From positions 1 to 39,459 of IMG/VR virus record IMGVR_UViG_3300028299_000354: a stretch of DNA of 39,459 nt; one strand, given 5' to 3'. This DNA is from a virus. Both the position numbers and the translations under genes were made by a program. Positions 19,500 to 38,752 of this stretch are shown piece after piece. Numbering within the stretch: position 1 is the first letter of the stretch; the number at the start of each line of letters is the position of its first letter. Below the pieces are notes generated by a model, which was given only the letters and a program-made list of their open reading frames with translations, was not told the DNA's origin and did not search any database.

Positions 19500-20702
19500 C
19501 TATAGTAACAAATTCTCGAACAATTCATAATGGCTCAATGGAGACCTTTTTCCGTTTCTGATTAAATAGCAATCCTTTATCGATTCACTATGTCTAATAT
19601 ATCTTTTTACGATAACATCAACAAATCTTTCATCAAGCTCCATTAAACAACTTTTACGATCCAATTGATCAGCTGCGATCAAAGTTGAACCAGACCCACC
19701 AAATAGATCTAGAATTGTTTCATGTCTTCTGCTGGAGTTTGAGATTGCTTTTCCTACAAGCTCTAAAGGTTTCATTGTTGGATGTTCTTCATTCTTTCTG
19801 GGTTTGTTGTATTCCCAGATTGTATCTTGAGAACGATCATCTATAAAGAAATGAGCTGCGCCTTCTCTCCATCCATAAAGAATAGGTTCATGTCTCCAGT
19901 GATAATCTTGTCTTCCCAGTACTAAAGCATTTTTAACCCAAATCAAACATTCAGCTAGTTTATATCCAGCATTCTTGAATGCATTCCTAAAGTTAAGTCC
20001 TTCAGTATCCGCGTGACAAACATAAATTGCTCCACCTGGTTTCGTATGCTCAAACATATTCTTGAATGCATCGTATAAAAAAAGATAGAAGCTATTATCT
20101 TCCATCTTATCGTTTTTGATTTTACCTGCAGTTCCTTCATAATCCACATTATAAGGTGGATCTGTAAAGACCATGTCCATCGTTTGGTTATCTACTAACT
20201 TATTTACATCTTCGCTATTTGTTGAATCCCCACACATAACTCGGTGATTACCAATGATATAGACATCACCTGGTTCACTGAAAGGAACTTCTGGAATCTC
20301 ATCATCTATATCAAAATCGTCATCACAAGCATTATCCGGAAGTAACTCTTCTAATTCCTCAAATCCAAATTGAAGCATATCCATATTAATAAAGGAAAGC
20401 TCTTCTTCCAGTTTTGAGAAATCCCAAGTCGCAAGTTCAGCAGTCTTGTTATCTGCTAATCGAAAAGCTTTGATTTGCTCGTCATTTAAGTCATCAGCAA
20501 TAATACATGGGACCTCTTTCAAATCAAGCGACACAGCGGCTTTTAAGCGCGTGTGTCCGGCAATAATAACATTGTCTTTCGTTATTACAATAGGAACCTT
20601 AAATCCAAACTCTTTAATTGAATTAGCTACTGACTGTACAGCCTCATCATTATTCCTTGGATTATTCTCATATACAATTAAATCTTTACTCTTCTTCATC
20701 AT
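19500..20702 (-). CDS. ParB-like domain / DNA adenine or cytosine-N4 methyltransferase
   Basis: About 400 residues. The N-terminal ~100 residues are a ParB/Srx-type nuclease-like domain (ENNPRNNDEAVQSVANSI, then GHTRLKAA). The methyltransferase follows: catalytic TDPPYNVDYEG (DPPY near 181-184) and SAM-binding DLFGGSGST near 332-340, in the order of the beta-type amino-methyltransferases. It likely methylates A-N6 or C-N4 in DNA, protecting phage DNA. The start is uncertain: ATG 20702 or 20699 best match the family N-terminus; 20735 is the longest. It overlaps the HTH gene's end. Confidence 0.9.
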   Translation of the reverse strand: MMKKSKDLIVYENNPRNNDEAVQSVANSIKEFGFKVPIVITKDNVIIAGHTRLKAAVSLDLKEVPCIIADDLNDEQIKAFRLADNKTAELATWDFSKLEEELSFINMDMLQFGFEELEELLPDNACDDDFDIDDEIPEVPFSEPGDVYIIGNHRVMCGDSTNSEDVNKLVDNQTMDMVFTDPPYNVDYEGTAGKIKNDKMEDNSFYLFLYDAFKNMFEHTKPGGAIYVCHADTEGLNFRNAFKNAGYKLAECLIWVKNALVLGRQDYHWRHEPILYGWREGAAHFFIDDRSQDTIWEYNKPRKNEEHPTMKPLELVGKAISNSSRRHETILDLFGGSGSTLIAADQLDRKSCLMELDERFVDVIVKRYIRHSESIKDCYLIRNGKRSPLSHYELFENLLL

Positions 20703-21171
20703 CACTAGCATTTGTCCAATCATCCTCTTTTGCATTCAGTCTTTTTTCCATCAAATCTAATTCACGTTTCTTTTCGTTATATTCTCGGCCAAAGTTAGTA
20801 ATTAGAAGATATCTTATTGCCTTGTAGTCTGGTCTCTCTTTTTTGGTATGTTTTTCAATTCTCTCTTTTCTTTTACCATTTCCATCTTTTTCAATATTGG
20901 TTTTGGTATCTTCTGAGAATGCACCGATAGCAAGCTGATACATCGAATCTAACAAATTCTTCTTCAAACCTTCTTTTCCTTTATAGATGGCTTCTTTAAT
21001 CTTAGGATGCTTTCTTTTTAACCCTATAAAAGTCTTCTCGCTAATTCCTAAGGATTCAGCAAGATCCCGTTGATTTATTCTTTTAGATGCTAGTTCTTCT
21101 ATTTCCTTTAATTTCTTTTTTAGAACTCCATCTTTTTCCCATTGCTGGTATGAATCTAGTAGTTTTGGCAT
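20686..21171 (-). CDS. Helix-turn-helix DNA-binding protein (phBC6A51/small-terminase-like HTH)
   Basis: 161 residues. INQRDLAESLGISEKTFIGLKRKHPKIKE (about 32-60) is an HTH, after a charged N-terminal helix; the C-terminal third is highly charged (KRKERIEKHTKKERPDYKA; ending NASDDEEE). It resembles HTH proteins annotated as phBC6A51-type or as small-terminase-like in phages. First gene of the segment leading to late genes, with GAGGTG ribosome site and a CTATTTAGTGC motif upstream. It may be a regulator; DNA target unknown. Confidence 0.65.
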   Translation of the reverse strand: MPKLLDSYQQWEKDGVLKKKLKEIEELASKRINQRDLAESLGISEKTFIGLKRKHPKIKEAIYKGKEGLKKNLLDSMYQLAIGAFSEDTKTNIEKDGNGKRKERIEKHTKKERPDYKAIRYLLITNFGREYNEKKRELDLMEKRLNAKEDDWTNASDDEEE

Positions 21172-23781: not shown

Positions 23782-24852
23782 TTATATTTTAACTATTTTG
23801 ACTTTTCCTTGTTCAATTAATTTATAAAATGAGTTAGGGTAAATTCTATTTATCATTTTTTGAACTATAGAGGTTACTTCAGACTTCCTATTTCCGCCCT
23901 CATAATCCGAATAACAAAAGAATACATTCTTTTTATGATTAAAGAAAGACAATATATTACTGTAATAGTCATTATCAAACTCATTTAATGAAGTTCCATA
24001 AAATACTATTGTATTATCTTCTTTTTCTTCTATTAATGTAGAAATAGGTTGAATGTCGCTTTGAATTCTTCTATTTGATTTTGTGAATCTTTCATAATCT
24101 GCTTTCGTGTTCGATTCTGCACTAATTCCAAAAATAGGATGATTTAAAATTGACCCATGAAGGTTTTGGACTTTTATGGCATGGCCTTCAATATTTTCAA
24201 TTAGTGATGTGTAATTAAAAGTAAATACATATATAGGCTGTTCCCTAATTGTACTGTTTACTAGCTTCTCAAACAACACAGTTTGATTTGTATAATATGA
24301 GTCTTTAACCTCATCAATTTCTTTACTGATATACAGTGAAAATCTATCCTCAAATTTAAATAACTCAAGGAGTAACTTTTCGATGAATTCACTATCTTGA
24401 ACAACTTTTGACTTAAAAAATTCTTTTGGAAGTCCAAGTCTTGACAGATACATCCCATCATCAAAGTATCTTTTATATAACATGTAGGCAAAATACCAAT
24501 CTGAATCCGGATTTTCCCAAGAATCACTATCTAGAAAATCATTGATCTTATCAAGAATCATATCCCAAAAACCAGATTGAATAGATTGGTTTATTTCAGC
24601 TTCAATATCACACCATAAATCTTGATTCATGTTGGGTGATTGAATCATAAAATATAAATCCCAAATTGTAAACTCTTGTTGATCTATAGCATTCCTGACA
24701 TAAGTATCAAATGAAAAGTCGTAAGGTTTTGAGGATGTTAAGTTCTTATACCATGGATATGTTTTCCTACACCAACTAAAAAAATGCGAATATTTTGTTT
24801 TTAGACCGCACTGAAGATCAAATCCATTTCCTAATACAAATATAGTTCCCAT
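23782..24852 (-). CDS. AbiH-family abortive infection protein
   Basis: 356 residues from ATG 24852 (GGAGGACTTT just upstream; the longer TTG start is in the ribosome site). The N-terminus MGTIFVLGNGFDLQCGLKTKYSHF is the diagnostic AbiH motif (GNGFDL at 8-13), and a VFTFNYTSLIE / NLHGS block follows at ~215-240, the usual AbiH (SIR2-related fold) pattern. AbiH from Lactococcus aborts phage infection by an unknown mechanism. Here it probably protects the lysogen against other phages. It has an extended -10 promoter and stands alone. Confidence 0.88.
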   Translation of the reverse strand: MGTIFVLGNGFDLQCGLKTKYSHFFSWCRKTYPWYKNLTSSKPYDFSFDTYVRNAIDQQEFTIWDLYFMIQSPNMNQDLWCDIEAEINQSIQSGFWDMILDKINDFLDSDSWENPDSDWYFAYMLYKRYFDDGMYLSRLGLPKEFFKSKVVQDSEFIEKLLLELFKFEDRFSLYISKEIDEVKDSYYTNQTVLFEKLVNSTIREQPIYVFTFNYTSLIENIEGHAIKVQNLHGSILNHPIFGISAESNTKADYERFTKSNRRIQSDIQPISTLIEEKEDNTIVFYGTSLNEFDNDYYSNILSFFNHKKNVFFCYSDYEGGNRKSEVTSIVQKMINRIYPNSFYKLIEQGKVKIVKI

Positions 24853-24936
24853 AAAGTCCTCCAATCACAAATTTTCATTAATTCGATTTTTCTTACATAA
24901 TTGATGCTCATCTCGCTATATCAAAAAAAACTATTT

Positions 24937-26585: not shown

Positions 26586-27035
26586 TTATAAGTTGTACCC
26601 CCGAGTAAAATCACTCATAAATGTAACAGGAATTCTCGACATAATCAATGTGATATTTTGTGTTGATCCAAACGTAAACCCATGATTAAGAACTAACTCT
26701 TCTACAAATAAGCTTTTATTAATCCTACTTACTATTTGACTGGAAAGTCCTACTTTTAAATGTGGTTGAATACTTAATGGAGCATTAGTGATATCAAGAA
26801 GATTAATCCTAAATTGTGCGCCAAATTTACCTGGTAACCCACTGGGAGTAATGCTATCTGAAATTTGGTAATAAGGGCCACTATACTGTCTAGTAAATTC
26901 GTTTACTAGACCCATTGGCACTTCAGCGTCAATTGATAACACTCTTCCTGGTGTACATAGATAACCAATAACTTCATACAACTCACTTAAATTATTAAAT
27001 GAAATAGTCTGTGCTCTAGAATGTAAAATACTCAT
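26586..27035 (-). CDS. Unknown protein, last gene of the R-M-like operon
   Basis: 149 residues, MSILHSRAQTISFNNLSELY..., mixed alpha/beta with VPMGLVNEFTRQYSGPYYQISD and MSRIPVTFMSDFTRGYNL near the end. No motif recognised. Start ATG 27035 has AAGGAG. It is 9 bp after the nuclease gene, and the tight spacing says it works with it: perhaps a DNA-binding or nuclease accessory subunit. Its function cannot be told from sequence. Confidence 0.6.
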   Translation of the reverse strand: MSILHSRAQTISFNNLSELYEVIGYLCTPGRVLSIDAEVPMGLVNEFTRQYSGPYYQISDSITPSGLPGKFGAQFRINLLDITNAPLSIQPHLKVGLSSQIVSRINKSLFVEELVLNHGFTFGSTQNITLIMSRIPVTFMSDFTRGYNL

Positions 27036-27044
27036 TTTTTCTCC

Positions 27045-27521
27045 TTAAATTTTTGGAATAACTGCAAGCATATCAGGAGCTGATCTTTTTACATCCCAAA
27101 TGCCAACTGTCATCTTTTTAATTTTCTTGATATCACCGAAATCTAGTAAATCTTCTCTCTTATATGTATTAAGTAATTTATCCAAACTTCCTAAATTGTT
27201 TGAAGTAAACAAGAAGGCTTCAAAAGGATCAATTAATTTACAGTATGCCCATAATTGCCCCAAATCTCTAAGCGTTAGTTGAGTAACCTTCGCTTCTATA
27301 AAAACTAACCTCACCATTTTACCACGCAATGCAATTCCCAATACATCTACTTGAATATCTACACCAATAGCTAAATCTAATATAATATCAAATTTATTCA
27401 ATACTCTATCTAGTCTTTCTGCATGAGAATCAACAGTAAATATTTTCCATCCATTGTATTTATCTTTCATGTATTGATTTAGCCATATCATCATTGGTTT
27501 GTATAATTCTATTTCTTTCAT
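27045..27521 (-). CDS. PD-(D/E)XK-type nuclease, likely restriction subunit
   Basis: 158 residues. VDIQVDVLGIAL gives the conserved D59, and LVFIEAKVTQLTLRDLGQLWAYC gives E76-A-K78 and Q89: the D-(D/E)xK-Q order of the PD-(D/E)XK nuclease fold (restriction/McrC/Holliday-resolvase type). The first 45 residues are helical. It overlaps the LAGLIDADG-like gene by 4 bases (ATGA), so it is probably expressed and used together with it. The cleavage role is inferred from motif and the two adjacent methyltransferases. Confidence 0.72.
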   Translation of the reverse strand: MKEIELYKPMMIWLNQYMKDKYNGWKIFTVDSHAERLDRVLNKFDIILDLAIGVDIQVDVLGIALRGKMVRLVFIEAKVTQLTLRDLGQLWAYCKLIDPFEAFLFTSNNLGSLDKLLNTYKREDLLDFGDIKKIKKMTVGIWDVKRSAPDMLAVIPKI

Positions 27522-28408
27522 TGTTTATACCCCAAACAATTAGCAATTTCAGTCCATTTATTAAAATGTGTTCCTCTAATTTCTTCAGGAATAAACAAAT
27601 CATTTTCACCAGGATGCATGGGTTTTACTTTACTACTAACCCTAGTTGATTCCCAATAGAAGCGATGTGTTTTATCAGATGCAATTCTATTTTGTCTAGA
27701 AAAGTTGCTTTCTAATTGTTGGGCGAATTGAGTTAAAGCTTCTCTTTTATGAATGATTCCAAATCCTACAGGAATAAATTCGTTTGCAAATATTTTAATC
27801 TGATGTTCTTTTTTCCAAAAATTAGGGTATCCTTGATTATGTTTTTTGAGATATCCATCCCTCATGTTGGGATGAGCCCAGTCTATCGTTTGAACTGGAA
27901 TATCTAGAGTTTTTAGCAGATTACAAATATCAACCACAAGATACCAATTATGTGGAACTTCAATGTAAACTCGATGCATTGGTTTAGTAAAGGCATAATT
28001 ACTTTCACGAATATAACCAGTGACATCAGCTAATCCACGAAGAAAAAAGAGTTTTTCATCTCTAGAAGAAGAATAAAAATAATTATCAATTCTAGTGTTT
28101 TCGTGACTAACAAATCCACCCGTGTATCTGATTATTTCTCTAATAAGGTAATCTTCATTATTTTTTTCAAAATATAAAGTTGTCTCACTTCTTCTTTGAG
28201 TATGTTGAAGCAAAGTACCAACCAAAGGTTCTAGTATTTGTTTGATATCAGCAATGCTTGCTCTAACATATATCAAAACATCACGATCGTTATAAGTCTG
28301 CTGGTTTTTATGTGGAATGGATATAGAAATTCTGGTTGTGGTATTTCCTCTAATTATTTCTCCATTTCCAGTAATCATTCCTAACAGATATGACATTTGC
28401 ACATTCAT
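27518..28408 (-). CDS. LAGLIDADG-fold protein with degenerate catalytic sites (putative DNA-recognition subunit)
   Basis: 296 residues. Two LAGLIDADG-like motifs ~115 residues apart: YLLGMITGNGEI (7-18) and FFLRGLADVTGYI (121-133), the layout of a monomeric two-repeat homing endonuclease. By alignment to the I-CreI LAGFVDGDG motif, the catalytic Asp positions are N15 and T130 here, so DNA cleavage by this protein is unlikely. A non-nuclease LAGLIDADG protein is known in WhiA. With a methyltransferase next to it and a PD-(D/E)XK gene overlapping its end, it may be the DNA-binding part of a split restriction enzyme. It is also possible it is a remnant homing nuclease. Confidence 0.62.
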   Translation of the reverse strand: MNVQMSYLLGMITGNGEIIRGNTTTRISISIPHKNQQTYNDRDVLIYVRASIADIKQILEPLVGTLLQHTQRRSETTLYFEKNNEDYLIREIIRYTGGFVSHENTRIDNYFYSSSRDEKLFFLRGLADVTGYIRESNYAFTKPMHRVYIEVPHNWYLVVDICNLLKTLDIPVQTIDWAHPNMRDGYLKKHNQGYPNFWKKEHQIKIFANEFIPVGFGIIHKREALTQFAQQLESNFSRQNRIASDKTHRFYWESTRVSSKVKPMHPGENDLFIPEEIRGTHFNKWTEIANCLGYKQ

Positions 28409-28416
28409 ATTAACAC

Positions 28417-29184
28417 CTACTTCTTATGCATGATTAAAACATACTCATGAACTTTATTAATTCTAAATCTAGCAGGATAGCCTAATGGTCGCATATTATT
28501 ATAATCTGACTGTCTATCCCAAATAATTAAGTCATCAAAAATAAACCCTACTTCTTTTAATTTGTACGCCAAATCACTATGCAATGGATAAAATTCACCC
28601 TTTTTCCGAATATCCATCACATTTATCAAGCAATAAGTGTCTGCGTTTAAACGATTATATACTAGTGAAAACAAATCTTTTAAATCATTAAGAAAGTGGT
28701 CATAATTTGAAATGTTGCCTAAATCATTAATGCTATCAGAGTAATTAACAGTTTCTTTCTTGTCAGCACTTCTTTTCATATTTAGTATATTCCAGTATGG
28801 TGGTGAAGTTACACAAATATCAAAGGTACCAATATCATTGTTTTTTAGTATGTCAAAACTATCGCCTTGAATTACTTCAATGTCGGTAGAATTCCCAATT
28901 CTACTTTTAGCTATCTCACAAAATTCTTCTGATAGATCGATTCCTAAAGCGCTACATCCTAAGTTTTTTGCTGCCACAAGTGTAGATCCTACTCCATTGA
29001 AAGGATCAATCACTCTGCAATTTGCGCGAGCAAAGGTGCTAATCAATTTTTCACACAAGGACACTGGATAAGAAGCAGGATGTTCTATTTTTTTTTCTTC
29101 TGAAGTCTTTCTTAAATCTCGCCATATACTAAACGAATTTTGTAACCATTCTTTTCCTGTTAAATCATTTGCTCTTCTTGCCAT
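28417..29184 (-). CDS. DNA amino-methyltransferase, second of two (N4-cytosine/N6-adenine)
   Basis: 255 residues. EHPASYPVSLCEKLI (34-49) precedes the SAM-binding motif DPFNGVGSTLVAA (60-72) and the catalytic motif TSPPYWNIL (126-134), SPPYW being typical of C-N4 or A-N6 methyltransferases. It is coupled to the first methyltransferase (20-base overlap) and to the next gene (8-bp gap). A pair of methyltransferases in one R-M-like operon usually means an asymmetric target, each enzyme modifying one strand. Confidence 0.87.
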   Translation of the reverse strand: MARRANDLTGKEWLQNSFSIWRDLRKTSEEKKIEHPASYPVSLCEKLISTFARANCRVIDPFNGVGSTLVAAKNLGCSALGIDLSEEFCEIAKSRIGNSTDIEVIQGDSFDILKNNDIGTFDICVTSPPYWNILNMKRSADKKETVNYSDSINDLGNISNYDHFLNDLKDLFSLVYNRLNADTYCLINVMDIRKKGEFYPLHSDLAYKLKEVGFIFDDLIIWDRQSDYNNMRPLGYPARFRINKVHEYVLIMHKK

Positions 29185-30580
29185 GGTCGATAACCCACTT
29201 TCCTGATTGCTCTTCTTTTACTGTTCTTTCAATATATTCTTTTTCAACTAAGTCGATATCATATATTCTGTATACTAAATCATTCAATTGTTCGTAGTAA
29301 AAAAACCATTTTTCACTCATGTAGTCTGTTTGTTCAAGCAAATCAACATATTCTAACACAACATCAAATAATACTTCAGAAACAATAAACGGAATTTTTC
29401 TAAGGTATTTAGCATCAACATGCATAGTTAATTGCGATCTATTAAAGCAATATCTGTGCAAGAAGTAATTGATTAATCTAGAATGCAAAATTCCCAATAC
29501 ATATCTACACATCGTTGCATCCCCATCAGTGAATACAGTTATTGTTTCAGAAGCTTCCAACTCACCACCAAAGCATGCAATAATACCCGATTCTTTACTA
29601 TATATATTTTGAATAAATATCTTATTACCTTGAGTCAAACTGCGGTTGTTTTTAAATCCAAATTTTCTAATATCTTTCCCAGAAATTGATTCTTCAATTT
29701 TACTTTTTCCACGACCCACATACCCACTAACGTAATCATTTAGTGTTGTATAGGAATTGTTAAATTTCATATAAATATTGTGGTCAAGATTGTTTTGAAA
29801 TAAAATAATTGTATCTTTGTAGAAATCTTGGTCTATTGATGTAAGATACATAAACTCATTATTATCATGCACATAAAATTTAATTTGATTGTTGCTAGGT
29901 TTTACTTTTTTTACTGTTAGGACAATCTGTTCACCTCTAACATTTTTGAAATACACACCAATATCAACTATAGATTCAATCGTATAGTCTCTCAAAAGTT
30001 CTCTTCTCAAAAGACTGTAGGAATTTATATGTAAAAAGTTTTTTGGAATAATAAATGATATCAATCCACCATCTGAAACCATTTCCTTTGCCCTTAATAA
30101 TGCTGCAATAAACAAATTATCTCCATTGTTTTTTACAGTTCGTGCAAATAAGTAATCAAATGTGTCAATTGAATTGGTTACATTTAATGGGGCGTAAGGT
30201 GGGTTTCCTATAACAACATGATATTTTTCTTTTATGTTAAAAGAATGCAATATTTTACTGTATGGATTTGAAATCGAATCTAATACTTTTACTTTTGCAA
30301 TAGGCACCATCTTTTTCGCTATTTTGATTGCACCTTTATCTATATCTGTTCCGTAAATGTTTTTAAATCCTAATTCTGCTGCAATTGACAAAAATGATCC
30401 TGTTCCACATGTCGGATCTATTATACGTAAATCATCTGTAATTTGCAGATTTAATAATCGATATATGTTTCTTACAAGATCTATATTCGTATAATATATA
30501 CCATTCTGCTTCTTATAATCTGAGGTTAAGCTTTTCTCATATTCGTTAGATTCATGTAAAAATTCTTTGCTAAGTTCCAT
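29165..30580 (-). CDS. DNA N6-adenine methyltransferase (Eco57I-like), first R-M-like gene
   Basis: 471 residues from ATG 30580 (GGAGGTG six bases upstream decides this start). NGIYYTNIDLV, then DPTCGTGSFL (55-64) and catalytic GNPPYAPL (125-132) mark a gamma-class N6-adenine methyltransferase with a C-terminal target-recognition-like region (RSLTQGNKIFIQN..., CRYVLGILHSRLIN). No endonuclease domain is fused. First gene of a five-gene operon with promoter 30620-30648. Confidence 0.9.
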   Translation of the reverse strand: MELSKEFLHESNEYEKSLTSDYKKQNGIYYTNIDLVRNIYRLLNLQITDDLRIIDPTCGTGSFLSIAAELGFKNIYGTDIDKGAIKIAKKMVPIAKVKVLDSISNPYSKILHSFNIKEKYHVVIGNPPYAPLNVTNSIDTFDYLFARTVKNNGDNLFIAALLRAKEMVSDGGLISFIIPKNFLHINSYSLLRRELLRDYTIESIVDIGVYFKNVRGEQIVLTVKKVKPSNNQIKFYVHDNNEFMYLTSIDQDFYKDTIILFQNNLDHNIYMKFNNSYTTLNDYVSGYVGRGKSKIEESISGKDIRKFGFKNNRSLTQGNKIFIQNIYSKESGIIACFGGELEASETITVFTDGDATMCRYVLGILHSRLINYFLHRYCFNRSQLTMHVDAKYLRKIPFIVSEVLFDVVLEYVDLLEQTDYMSEKWFFYYEQLNDLVYRIYDIDLVEKEYIERTVKEEQSGKWVIDHGKKSK

Positions 30581-30619
30581 GCTACACCTCCACATATTAA
30601 TCTTTTAATCTTAAACGTT

Positions 30620-30648
30620 ATTATACCAAAAATATATATAAATATAAA
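30620..30648 (-). promoter_or_regulatory. Promoter of the R-M-like operon
   Basis: Minus strand TTTATA, 17-base spacer, TATAAT with extended TGG. It lies 40 bases before the first methyltransferase start. A perfect inverted repeat ATAGTAT-TTTT-ATACTAT (30662-30679) lies just upstream, overlapping the preceding stop, and may be an operator or weak terminator. No C-protein gene is present. Confidence 0.65.
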
Positions 30649-32981: not shown

Positions 32982-33899
32982 TTATTTGCGAGTTGTTTTA
33001 CCAAACAACGTATCACTAATCTTCCCTTCGTAATTCTCTTTTCTTCTATTCATCTTGTGGATATAGATTTGTGTGGTTGCTGGGTCTTTATGTCTAAGCA
33101 AATGTTGTGTGCTTTCAATGCCTGCGCCTTCAAGTAGGGACAACGTTGCTGTCGTGTGTCTTAAGCTATGTGCAGAATATTTTGGACTATCGATGCCTAT
33201 TTGTCTCAAGTATTCTTTAACTACAGCCCGAATTGATCTTGTTTGCATTCTCTCTCCGTAATTCGTATGACCATGATTAATGAATAGTGGTTTGAATTCA
33301 TCGGAACGTTTTATTAAATATTCTTCAATGATTGCGTAAACTTGTGGTGATAATTTTACATAAGTATCCTTATCATCATGTCCTTTTCCCATTACAAATA
33401 ATACCTGGGATTCTTCAATAAAATCGATATCTTCTGTATCTGATCTTTCAACTTCAATTGTCCTTAATCCGGTTGTAAGCAACAAACTGATTAAAGCATA
33501 ATTTCTTTGACCTAGAATATCTTTTCTAGCGTGCAGCTCAGCTCTATGTAAAAGCTTCTTTGAGTCTGCAACCGAGAGTGCTTCACGTTTAAAGTTTGAT
33601 TCAATCTTCATTCCTTTTATACCTTCTGCGATATTAGGTCCATATCCCTCAATATAATACCATCGGTAGAAATTTCGAATGACAACAATGTGTTTCTGAA
33701 CTGAAGCAGCTTTTAGTCTGTTTTTGATGCGTTCACGGTAATTCATGACATCATACCTAGTTGGTAAGTTAGGAAGATTATCAATATATGAAACATACTC
33801 TAATAGAATCCTTTGGTAGCCTTCTTTCGTAGCTGGTTTAATATCAATATATCTAATATACTGATTGACTCTGTCTTTTAATGATTCTTGAGTATTCAT
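32982..33899 (-). CDS. Tyrosine recombinase (XerC/D-like)
   Basis: 305 residues with an N-terminal SAM-like core-binding domain and a catalytic domain: R146 (TTGLRTIEV), K172 (GKGHDD), H244xxR247 (SAHSLRHTT), H270 (LLRHKDPATT), Y279 (QIYIHKMN). All six catalytic positions are present. No AP2-like arm-binding domain, so it is a minimal Xer-type. It lies in the early operon, away from the serine recombinases. Integration/excision or dimer resolution are both possible. Confidence 0.92.
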   Translation of the reverse strand: MNTQESLKDRVNQYIRYIDIKPATKEGYQRILLEYVSYIDNLPNLPTRYDVMNYRERIKNRLKAASVQKHIVVIRNFYRWYYIEGYGPNIAEGIKGMKIESNFKREALSVADSKKLLHRAELHARKDILGQRNYALISLLLTTGLRTIEVERSDTEDIDFIEESQVLFVMGKGHDDKDTYVKLSPQVYAIIEEYLIKRSDEFKPLFINHGHTNYGERMQTRSIRAVVKEYLRQIGIDSPKYSAHSLRHTTATLSLLEGAGIESTQHLLRHKDPATTQIYIHKMNRRKENYEGKISDTLFGKTTRK

Positions 33900-35340: not shown

Positions 35341-35380
35341 ACTTGCTATTTATTGCTTTTTGAGTGATGTATATAGTAAC
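35341..35380 (+). promoter_or_regulatory. Promoter-like conserved block B before the first serine recombinase
   Basis: ACTTGCTATTTATTGC... then GAGTGATGTATATAGTAAC; 35 of 40 bases identical to block A (19450-19489). It overlaps the last bases of the 48-aa gene region and precedes AGGAGGTG of the recombinase. Confidence 0.5.
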
Positions 35381-35396
35381 GAAAAGGAGGTGCATT

Positions 35397-37097
35397 ATGT
35401 TAGAAAAAAGAGTGTTTGTCATGGAACCCGAGCAGATGATTCATGAAGATTCTAATGGGATGCCAGTTTTAAAGTCAAAAAAGAAAGTTTGTGCATACGC
35501 CAGGGTTTCTACAGATTCAGACGATCAGTTAAATAGTTACCAAGCACAGATAGATGAATTCACGAAAAAAATACAAGATAATGAAGAATGGGAATTTATC
35601 AGGATGTATGCAGACGAAGGAATTTCTGGAACCAGCATCAAGAAACGTCCAGAATTCTTAAACATGATTGAAGATGCACGAGAAGGAAAAATTGATTTAA
35701 TTCTAACAAAGTCTTTATCTAGATTTGCTAGAAACACAGTAGATACATTAACAATTGTTAGAGAATTAAGAAGCATTGGTGTTGAAGTGTTCTTTGAAAA
35801 AGAAAACATTTATTCATCAGATACCAAAGTAGATTTTATGCTAACAATCTTTTCCTCAATTGCGCAGGAAGAAGCTAGAAACATAAGCGAGAATGTCAAA
35901 TGGGGATTTCAAAAAAGGTTTAAAGAAGGAAAAGTTCATATCAACACAAAACGATTCCTTGGATATGATAAGGATGATGATGGAAAAATCATCATTAATG
36001 ATATTCAAGCAAAAACGGTTAGAATGATTTTTGATATGTACATTGCAGGTTCCTCATTAAAAGAGATTGTTGAATTCTTGACAGAAAATGAAATTCCAAA
36101 TGGTCGAGATGAGATCTTTTGGACATCTGCTACAGTAAGCACAATCCTCACCAATGAAAAATACTGTGGTGATGCAATACTTCAGAAACGAGTAACCTTG
36201 GATTACCTCACACACAAATCAGTTAAAAACAATGGCCATGCTCCAAAGTACTATATCATGAACAATCATGAGCCTATCATTCCAAGAAAAAAATTCGAGC
36301 TAGTTCAAAGTTTAAAAACCAAAAGAGGTAAAAAGAAAAGCACTTCGAATTATGGTAACAAATATGCACTTAGCGGAATGGTCTATTGTGGTGAATGCGG
36401 TAAGGTTATGAACCGCCATTACTACAACTACAATAAACCGACTCAAAGGATAGTGTTATCCTGTAAAAACAGATACAAAGATCCTCATGTTTGTAGCAAC
36501 AAACCAGTTGATAATGATTTGCTAGAGAATGCCGTAATAGAATCAATCCAAAAACTTAATCTTCATAACCCTAAAATTGTAAATGATACACTAAGCTTAG
36601 TAAAATCTAGTTTAGATTCATCCTATATGGAAATGGAAATCAAAGAAACACAAAAACAAATTAATACTCTTGAAAGTGAAATCAAAGAGATCATCAACAT
36701 AAACGTTGGCTCAATGGTCGAAAATACAGATTTCTATAAAGCAGTCTACAATGAAAAGAAAGCTTCTTTGATCCAACTGAAGGCAGACTTGCAAAATAAA
36801 AAAGGCTTACTTATCGATCAGCATCTTCACGATGAACGGATTCAACAAATAAGCGAATTTTTAAAAGGTTATACTTCTCTTAATAAGAATATACTCTTAG
36901 GAGTTTATAAAGCAATTATTGCAGTTAGCCAAAATGAAGTAATCTTTGTAATGAGTGATAGCAAGCTTTCTCAAAAAGAAATTCAAGATAACATTGAAAC
37001 CTATAAATCACTAAAACGAATCGAAAGTAATACAATCGTTAATTTTGATGCAAAGCGATCAATCACTTATCACATCGTAAAACATAGTGGTAAATAG
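35397..37097 (+). CDS. Large serine recombinase 1
   Basis: 566 residues from ATG 35397 (AGGAGGTG CATT before it). Catalytic domain: ARVSTDSDDQL with S38, SLSRFARNT, EEARNISENVKWGF; recombinase domain with RFLGYDKDDDG; a CGECGK...C...C zinc ribbon near residues 320-360 and a coiled-coil C-terminal region. Performs site-specific integration/excision. No catalytic residue missing. A 2-bp gap to the second recombinase means co-translation. Confidence 0.95.
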   Translation: MLEKRVFVMEPEQMIHEDSNGMPVLKSKKKVCAYARVSTDSDDQLNSYQAQIDEFTKKIQDNEEWEFIRMYADEGISGTSIKKRPEFLNMIEDAREGKIDLILTKSLSRFARNTVDTLTIVRELRSIGVEVFFEKENIYSSDTKVDFMLTIFSSIAQEEARNISENVKWGFQKRFKEGKVHINTKRFLGYDKDDDGKIIINDIQAKTVRMIFDMYIAGSSLKEIVEFLTENEIPNGRDEIFWTSATVSTILTNEKYCGDAILQKRVTLDYLTHKSVKNNGHAPKYYIMNNHEPIIPRKKFELVQSLKTKRGKKKSTSNYGNKYALSGMVYCGECGKVMNRHYYNYNKPTQRIVLSCKNRYKDPHVCSNKPVDNDLLENAVIESIQKLNLHNPKIVNDTLSLVKSSLDSSYMEMEIKETQKQINTLESEIKEIININVGSMVENTDFYKAVYNEKKASLIQLKADLQNKKGLLIDQHLHDERIQQISEFLKGYTSLNKNILLGVYKAIIAVSQNEVIFVMSDSKLSQKEIQDNIETYKSLKRIESNTIVNFDAKRSITYHIVKHSGK

Positions 37098-37099
37098 TA

Positions 37100-38752
37100 A
37101 TGAAAGTTGTAGAACTGTTAGATTTAGAGTCTTATGAAAAGAATCAACAAAAAAAGAACGTATGTGCATATGCAAGAGTTTCCTCAACTAAGGATGTTCA
37201 AACAACTTCATTTGATTTACAAGTTGAAACGTATACAAAAATGATACAGAGTAATCCTGAATGGAATTTTGCTGGTGTCTATGCAGATGAAGGAAAAAGT
37301 GGAACCAATTTAGTCTACAGAGATCAATTTAACTTGATGGTTGATTTAGCTAAATCAGGAACCATCGATATGATAATAACAAAATCTGTATCCAGGTTTG
37401 CAAGAAACACCATAGATTGTTTATCTGTTATTCAAGAACTAAAGAGACATGGAACTGAAGTGTGGTTTGAAAAAGAAAACTTATCTTCATTTGATCCAAA
37501 GATAGAATTCGTTATTGCTGTAATGGCAGGTATGGCTGAAGAGGAATCAAGAGGAATAAGTGAAAACGTGAAATGGGGAGTACGTAAAAGATTTAGAGAT
37601 GGAATTGTACCCATGGTAACTTCTCAAATCCTAGGTTACGACCGAGATGATAACAACAACATAATTATTAATAAGAAAGAAGCCAAAGTTATCAAACTGA
37701 TTTTCAAAATGTACTCAGAAGGCATATCCTTAAGACTAATAGCTGAACATTTGAATACATTAAGTCTAAAAACAAAATATGGAAATAAGGCATACTATGA
37801 AGGTGCAATTCGAGGGATTATTAATAACGAACGATATACTGGAAATGCAATACTTCAAAAATCAATTAGAAAGAAAGTAGGCGATCGTTCAGGAGATAAG
37901 AATCAGCAAACTCATCCGAAATACTACGTTCAAAACTCACATCCTGCTATTGTTTCTCAAGAGCTATTTGATGAGGTACATAAAATAAAAAATAAGCGCA
38001 TTCTTAAATACAATCATATCCTTGATAAAAAGCAATTAAAAAAAGTCGGTACCAATCGTTCTGAATATGCAGAGTTTGTCGAATGTGGAATATGTGGCAA
38101 GAATTACCATTTCAAAGTAAACAATAAAAACACAATCTCAGAAAAAGAAATCCTTGTATGTTTTTCAAACAAAGTAAATAAGAAATGTGATAATGATGCT
38201 TTATTTATAGAAACCTTTGATGAAATGCTTATCTCGCAAATAAACAATATCTTAAAGCATAAAGATGAGTTCCTAAATAGCCTTCGTAAGGCTTTAATGA
38301 TTCATCCTGCTATCATTGACCTCAATTCCTGTTTGAAGCAAGCACAGGAAAAATTAGACGAGTATGACGCGAAGTTAAGGAATCTCATATCTTCTTCTGA
38401 TGACTTAGATAAGCTTGTACGAGATGAGATAATATCACTTAAGAATGAGACTGAATTAGATCTACTTAAAAGTAAGAACGCTTTATTAACAACTCACAAT
38501 ATTTCATCTGTTATTAAAAAAATTAAAGCATTGCTTAATACGCATAAAGTACCGATAGAAAGCATAACAGATTTTTCATTTAGAGATTTATTCACAAAAG
38601 TTATAGTACACGATAGAGATCATATTGAATTTGTGATAAATGCATTTCAGAGCACCTACCAGAAAAGTGTGTATTCCTTTCCATCAATTGAGACTGAATA
38701 TATAATTCGCAAAACTAAACACAAAGCACAAAGTGTAATTAACCTTTATTAA
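37100..38752 (+). CDS. Large serine recombinase 2
   Basis: 550 residues. Catalytic S28 in ARVSSTKD, SVSRFARNT, EEESRGISENVKWGV; zinc-ribbon-like CGICGKNY...C...C around residues 330-370; coiled-coil in the C-terminus. Sequence resembles recombinase 1 but is distinctly different. Tandem large serine recombinases act as a pair in some elements (SCCmec CcrA/CcrB). Which of the two catalyses integration here cannot be told from sequence. Confidence 0.95.
   Translation: MKVVELLDLESYEKNQQKKNVCAYARVSSTKDVQTTSFDLQVETYTKMIQSNPEWNFAGVYADEGKSGTNLVYRDQFNLMVDLAKSGTIDMIITKSVSRFARNTIDCLSVIQELKRHGTEVWFEKENLSSFDPKIEFVIAVMAGMAEEESRGISENVKWGVRKRFRDGIVPMVTSQILGYDRDDNNNIIINKKEAKVIKLIFKMYSEGISLRLIAEHLNTLSLKTKYGNKAYYEGAIRGIINNERYTGNAILQKSIRKKVGDRSGDKNQQTHPKYYVQNSHPAIVSQELFDEVHKIKNKRILKYNHILDKKQLKKVGTNRSEYAEFVECGICGKNYHFKVNNKNTISEKEILVCFSNKVNKKCDNDALFIETFDEMLISQINNILKHKDEFLNSLRKALMIHPAIIDLNSCLKQAQEKLDEYDAKLRNLISSSDDLDKLVRDEIISLKNETELDLLKSKNALLTTHNISSVIKKIKALLNTHKVPIESITDFSFRDLFTKVIVHDRDHIEFVINAFQSTYQKSVYSFPSIETEYIIRKTKHKAQSVINLY

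Follow-up and report, generated by a model that had tools for sequence, protein, structure and literature searches.

A LAGLIDADG-fold protein without catalytic acids, paired with a minimal PD-(D/E)XK nuclease in a phage-borne operon with two methyltransferases

The operon and its phage setting

Five open reading frames lie close together on the minus strand of the window, which is the whole 39,459-nucleotide stretch of viral DNA analysed here (IMG/VR record IMGVR_UViG_3300028299_000354), a 39-kb phage or prophage with terminase, portal, tape measure, and integrase. An earlier note, made from the sequence alone, had described a tightly packed, restriction-modification-like operon of five genes at this place, and indeed M1, M2, LAG, PD, and S149 were all confirmed, with intergenic spacings along the operon of -20, +8, -4, and +9 nt. 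The features are as follows.

30620..30648, minus strand: candidate promoter for the operon, TTTATA-17-TATAAT, with an extended -10; it lies 39 nt upstream of the 30580 ATG and shares first place among the matches of the scan
29165..30580, minus strand: M1, adenine-N6 DNA methyltransferase of the Eco57I/TaqI_C type with NPPY, from Pfam matches and the motif
28417..29184, minus strand: M2, N4/N6 DNA methyltransferase with SPPYW (Pfam N6_N4_Mtase, 2e-29)
27518..28408, minus strand: LAG, two-repeat LAGLIDADG-fold protein of 296 aa, proposed recognition subunit, from an AlphaFold2 model and fold matches
28361..28387, minus strand: LAGLIDADG motif 1, LLGMITGNG, with N15 (28364-28366) in the catalytic position
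28016..28042, minus strand: LAGLIDADG motif 2, LRGLADVTG, with T130 (28019-28021) in the catalytic position
27045..27521, minus strand: PD, minimal PD-(D/E)XK nuclease of 158 aa, proposed cutting subunit; its first 4 nt are shared with the end of LAG
27345..27347, minus strand: catalytic D59 of PD, invariant in 86/86 loci and kept in L096
27288..27296, minus strand: catalytic E76-A-K78 of PD, E and K invariant in 86/86 loci; EVK in L096
26586..27035, minus strand: S149, an optional third component; its small, new family is related to the N-terminal region of proteins that in relatives carry a NOV_C nuclease fusion

There are two in-frame ATGs for M1. An alternative ORF start lies at 30595, and the ATG at 30580, which is preceded by GGAGG, agrees with the end in the earlier note. 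The promoter call is weak, the number of matches in the scan being that expected by chance. All five genes appear to be under purifying selection, with dN of 0.13-0.38 against dS greater than 1 and a low dN/dS, where dS is saturated. No significant match to a helicase/ATPase motor family was seen in the family libraries for any of the five.

Downstream of the operon is an AbiH-family abortive infection gene (PF14253, 1e-24; window 23782-24864), which would place two defence modules within one cargo region. Elsewhere in the window there are two tandem large serine recombinases (both phrog_95; 35364-38752) besides a tyrosine integrase (32982-33899), and a further phage methyltransferase, in which a ParB-like domain is fused to the DNA methyltransferase (phrog_498, 2e-159; 19500-20735).

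Folds and catalytic residues of LAG and PD

LAG and PD are annotated in public records as hypothetical proteins. Neither these two nor S149 have a convincing match in Pfam, NCBIfam, PADLOC, or PHROGs, and LAG and PD gave no match by sequence against the PDB. A scan of genome contigs from approximately 85,000 species found 120 relatives of LAG, 80 of which were fetched; these genome loci make up the 86 distinct loci compared here once the window and the loci from phages, plasmids, and viruses are added.

The structure of LAG was modelled with AlphaFold2 from 61 aligned relatives (pLDDT 90.1, pTM 0.90) and has two repeats in the order helix-sheet-helix-sheet, with the alpha-beta-beta-alpha-beta-beta repeats and motif helices of the LAGLIDADG superfamily. 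Its fold neighbours in the PDB are LAGLIDADG proteins, these being PI-SceI and I-Tsp061I (both Z 14.8), PI-PfuI (14.5), I-DmoI (13.1), and WhiA (12.8), which bears out the two-repeat LAGLIDADG identity originally read from the sequence. The sequence libraries detect it weakly, with a Hom_end signal in 9 of the 61 relatives (best E 0.03), while the named phage matches of LAG are mostly homing endonucleases or kinds of protein that commonly carry them. From sequence alone, hhalign placed the two repeats in register with one another, but with a probability of 2.4%, and one of 20 shuffled controls performed as well; the fold assignment rests on the model. A relationship to PtuA, which the LAG of the window matches at 7e-4, was rejected, as the match is absent from the other 60 relatives scanned.

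N15 and T130 each stand at position 8 of their LAGLIDADG motif, and in the alignment both are invariant in 86/86 loci, so the earlier observation that the catalytic aspartates have been replaced holds throughout the family. In two distant LAGs from the Bacillota sample these positions are R/A (L095) and G/I (L096). The acid at motif position 8 that marks a homing endonuclease is thus absent from LAG and from its distant members alike. It had been considered that other acidic residues might emerge in a better alignment, yet the deep alignment holds no substitute acid: the two catalytic positions read N/T, G/I, or R/A, and E17 is found in 82/86 loci, several members having lost it. D128, which does not vary even among the distant members, is at motif position 6, which is not the one that binds metal. 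Conservation extends to the last 56 residues of LAG, where 17 positions are conserved at at least 90%. The distant LAG of L096 (L096:7016-8410), of 464 aa, extends at its C-terminus by some 170 further residues and lies beside a C5 methyltransferase and a diverged PD.

The AlphaFold2 model of PD (pLDDT 96.0) has the restriction-endonuclease fold. Its fold matches are mostly PD-(D/E)XK enzymes, including AF1548 (Z 9.0), the nuclease domain of PaqCI (8.9), a Pyrococcus abyssi repair endonuclease of the NucS/EndoMS kind (8.1), EcoT38I (7.9), the small subunit of BspD6I (7.0), and FokI (6.9). The core fold is accompanied by the D...(D/E)XK residues that define this superfamily, and the reading of PD as a D59/E76-x-K78 nuclease is upheld by the invariance of all three residues. 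A QxxxY motif, Q89 and Y93, is present in 85 of the 86 loci. At 15% identity, the PD of L096 keeps E3, D59, E76, K78, Q89, and Y93. Set against the N15/T130 of LAG and the R/A and G/I of its distant members, this means that LAG is never found with catalytic acids and PD is always found with its own. As modelled, PD is little more than a nuclease core and would require targeting. A common fold alone is no proof of function, and the remainder of the case for LAG and PD is carried by residues and by linkage.

A conserved gene pair and its changing methyltransferases

PD is directly 3' of LAG in 86/86 loci, mostly overlapping it and in the remainder 0-5 nt apart, the commonest spacings being -11 nt (35 loci) and -4 nt (16 loci). 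The two are separate ORFs in all loci examined. In L061 PD is shortened to 93 aa, while the distant branch L096 also keeps the pair. Searches in the reverse direction give the same picture: three loci came up when viral contigs were scanned with PD, each of them carrying LAG, and among 398 Bacillota genomes the PD profile matched only the two with complete LAG loci. The pair is therefore conserved together, as the earlier note had asked of it. Overlapping or near-abutting genes suggest equal synthesis of the two proteins and a complex between them. A mirror-tree comparison for LAG-PD contact gave a pairwise-distance r of 0.65, lower than the 0.83-0.84 seen for LAG with the methyltransferases.

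Two loci depart from this arrangement, and both look decayed. L095 has a diverged LAG and an SPPYW methyltransferase without PD, adjoined by a transposase. In L097 (6231-6971) the reading frame of an SPPYW methyltransferase runs on into the final part of LAG, apparently what a deletion has left of the operon.

The pair recurs across about ten phyla, although single phylum labels may be wrong because many of the carriers are metagenome bins. The labels in the tree are Bacillota, Mycoplasmatota, Bacteroidota, Spirochaetota, Thermodesulfobacteriota, Pseudomonadota, Synergistota, Elusimicrobiota, Chloroflexota, and Melainabacteria. Isolates that carry it include Treponema socranskii, [Ruminococcus] torques, Anaerotignum neopropionicum, Barnesiella, Butyrivibrio, and Phascolarctobacterium, and a form with fused methyltransferases is found on a 6.5-kb L. 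plantarum plasmid. Cultured carriers include L. plantarum P9, whose plasmid p9 has a compact form of three genes, [Ruminococcus] torques ATCC 27756, and Butyrivibrio sp. X503. In a Bacteroidota sample, an already known genome was the sole match. The closest relatives of the window in the LAG tree are a viral contig, a Tenericutes bin, and an Acholeplasmataceae bin.

Two different methyltransferases had been proposed for the operon from their NPPY and SPPYW motifs, and this is correct. M1 matches Eco57I (PF07669, 3e-16), N6_Mtase (1e-15), and TaqI_C (5e-7) in Pfam. The target of M2 is probably cytosine-N4, judging from its SPPYW motif and its replacement by C5 methyltransferases in relatives. 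The catalytic motifs are intact across the loci, NPPY in 44/44, SPPYW in 42/42, NPPF in 36/36, and PPCQG in 43/43. Among the 86 loci, 41 have an Eco57I-type enzyme with an SPPYW enzyme, 20 have an EcoRI-type enzyme with a separate C5 enzyme, 17 have these two fused, and four have C5 with Eco57I-type; the other four are cut by a contig end. Where there is enough contig there is always one adenine and one cytosine methyltransferase beside LAG-PD (82/82 loci), that is, DNA methyltransferases are genetically linked to the candidate restriction nuclease PD in every such locus.

The EcoRI-type and C5 combination occurs in two separate places in the LAG tree, which indicates that both methyltransferases are replaceable under a conserved LAG-PD core. 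One of these groups adjoins the C5 and Eco57I-type group, inside the Eco57I-type and SPPYW part of the tree. Retention of an adenine and a cytosine methyltransferase despite these changes of family fits an asymmetric site whose two strands would be methylated at A and at C, respectively. Alw26I, Eco31I, and Esp3I are systems in which one asymmetric site is protected by an adenine methyltransferase and a C5 methyltransferase, and M1 touches the model of that adenine enzyme (5.6e-16). It differs in scoring 58 bits against a family cut-off of 353 bits, and neither LAG nor PD matches an NCBIfam restriction-enzyme model.

A proposed split restriction enzyme and its alternatives

These findings make it likely that the operon encodes a split type II restriction enzyme for an asymmetric site, in which LAG binds, PD cuts, M1 and M2 protect, and S149 is accessory. 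LAG is most likely the recognition subunit, a role we infer. As a pseudo-symmetric protein of two repeats it would bind an asymmetric DNA site through two different half-saddles, and it would be unable to cut because both catalytic acids are gone. PD, the bare PD-(D/E)XK core encoded by the overlapping next gene, would dock on LAG and cut within or beside the site, probably as a dimer. The same site would be protected by M1 through adenine-N6 methylation and by M2 through cytosine methylation, probably at N4, presumably one per strand, and all components would share one specificity. The phage or prophage would carry the operon as a cargo module for defence and exclusion. Points against a split enzyme are that the distances of LAG correlate less with those of PD than with those of the methyltransferases, that PD might be the enzyme by itself, and that L095 retains LAG and an SPPYW methyltransferase in the absence of PD, although beside a transposase.

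The nearest parallel is with the type IIT enzymes BtsI, BsrDI, and BspD6I, in which the large subunit recognises the whole asymmetric site and the small subunit has no specificity, and heteromeric enzymes of this type for asymmetric sites usually have two methyltransferases, separate or fused (PMC4081073). LAG-PD likewise has two unlike genes, two methyltransferases, and a similar subunit logic, in so far as the site is asymmetric, and the small subunit of BspD6I is among the fold matches of PD. The difference is that their large subunit cuts one strand, whereas LAG is a LAGLIDADG fold without catalytic acids, so that all cutting must come from PD. With an active site in PD only, and not two different ones, the system would work in a IIT-like manner but is not filed as type IIT. 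The type IIS enzymes FokI and PaqCI are single chains, and the PaqCI paper makes no mention of a LAGLIDADG recognition domain (PMC10201449). They resemble LAG-PD in having separate recognition and nuclease modules, and the PaqCI nuclease domain is one of the best fold matches of PD, but LAG and PD are two genes. The LAGLIDADG homing endonucleases PI-SceI, I-Tsp061I, and I-DmoI have the two-repeat fold in common with LAG (Z 13-14.8), yet they cut with position-8 acids and are mobile, whereas LAG has no such acids and is in a restriction operon.

WhiA (DUF199) provides a precedent for a LAGLIDADG fold turned DNA-binding protein. It is a transcription regulator with an HTH domain and, to our knowledge, is not linked to nucleases or methyltransferases. 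In Pfam, LAG matched neither WhiA nor an HTH family. Given its match to LAG, and that type II systems often carry control proteins, LAG could be a WhiA-like regulator of the operon. PD, which is close in size to the smallest type II enzymes, would then be the restriction enzyme by itself, as several small type II enzymes recognise their sites without a partner (PvuII, about 157 aa). This is nevertheless unlikely. LAG has no evident helix-turn-helix partner domain, it is always directly before PD (overlapping or within 5 nt) and not at the head of the operon, conservation is high in its last 56 residues too, and it persists through the replacement of both methyltransferases.

A further alternative, improbable on the present alignment, is a type IIT-like heterodimer in which LAG cuts one strand by unusual residues and PD cuts the other. 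Known LAGLIDADG cleavage needs the position-8 acids in each motif, and both positions are here N/T, G/I, or R/A. The invariance of D128, distant members included, and the presence of E17 in most loci would be in favour of cutting by LAG, but the loss of E17 in several members and the position of D128 away from the metal-binding residue are not. Type IIT heterodimers do use two different sites (PMC4081073), which is to the credit of this alternative.

PD also resembles effector nucleases such as Can2/Card1 and NucC (Z 6-8), and relatives of S149 are sometimes fused to a NOV_C nuclease domain, as might be expected if LAG and PD were some other defence effector, for example against modified or marked DNA, and the two methyltransferases were not its protection. 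This is very improbable, since two methyltransferases with fixed target bases in every locus with enough contig are a signature of protection. That LAG is a degenerate homing endonuclease settled by chance in the operon is hardly credible in spite of its homing-endonuclease fold and motifs, given its identical place beside PD in 86/86 loci from about ten phyla, the purifying selection on it, its invariant non-acidic catalytic positions, and the lack of a surrounding intron or intein.

Returning to the split restriction enzyme, we lean with little more than even confidence towards the broader view that the LAGLIDADG fold of homing endonucleases was taken over a single time to serve a widespread split enzyme as its specificity subunit, one that does not cut, and that this LAG-PD core, keeping to one asymmetric sequence, has repeatedly exchanged its methylases (m4C to m5C for cytosine, Eco57I-type to EcoRI-type for adenine). 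The earlier note knew of no LAGLIDADG protein as the recognition subunit of a split restriction enzyme, and no LAGLIDADG restriction enzyme was found in the open-access literature searched; the LAG-PD system appears to be undescribed. If the proposal is true, LAGLIDADG would join the folds of type II restriction enzymes, for reading rather than cutting DNA, and the pair would be a natural split, LAGLIDADG-guided nuclease with specificity and cutting in separate genes. The exchange of methylases while the restriction enzyme stays constant could likewise be put to the test here, and a group of genes currently labelled hypothetical could be named as probable defence genes in phages, plasmids, and gut and rumen bacteria.

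The 149-aa protein had been listed as an unknown. The gene is present as described, but it is no orphan. Iterative profiles, started from five seeds, converged on a family of 51 members, spread over 42 of 86 loci or about half of the relatives, with two different S-family genes per locus in nine (L010, L011, L012, L014, L015, L016, L017, L020, L048). None was found outside LAG-PD loci in the 398 Bacillota genomes, a set without a positive control, and the single match of S149 by sequence against the PDB is at chance level (E 0.29). As to its role, accessory binding and a second nuclease line are both guesses. Eight loci have the S domain in a fusion, and the part fused to it in L002 matches a NOV_C nuclease domain (Pfam 5.5e-9); there the gene (L002:2868-3944) joins the S domain to a PD-(D/E)XK-like NOV_C domain with an apparent EVK motif, possibly a second nuclease of the same system. 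Other defence genes lie directly after the operon in some loci, with an OLD-like AAA/TOPRIM and UvrD pair in L001 (5768-8525) and GmrSD in L006 (4202-6295).
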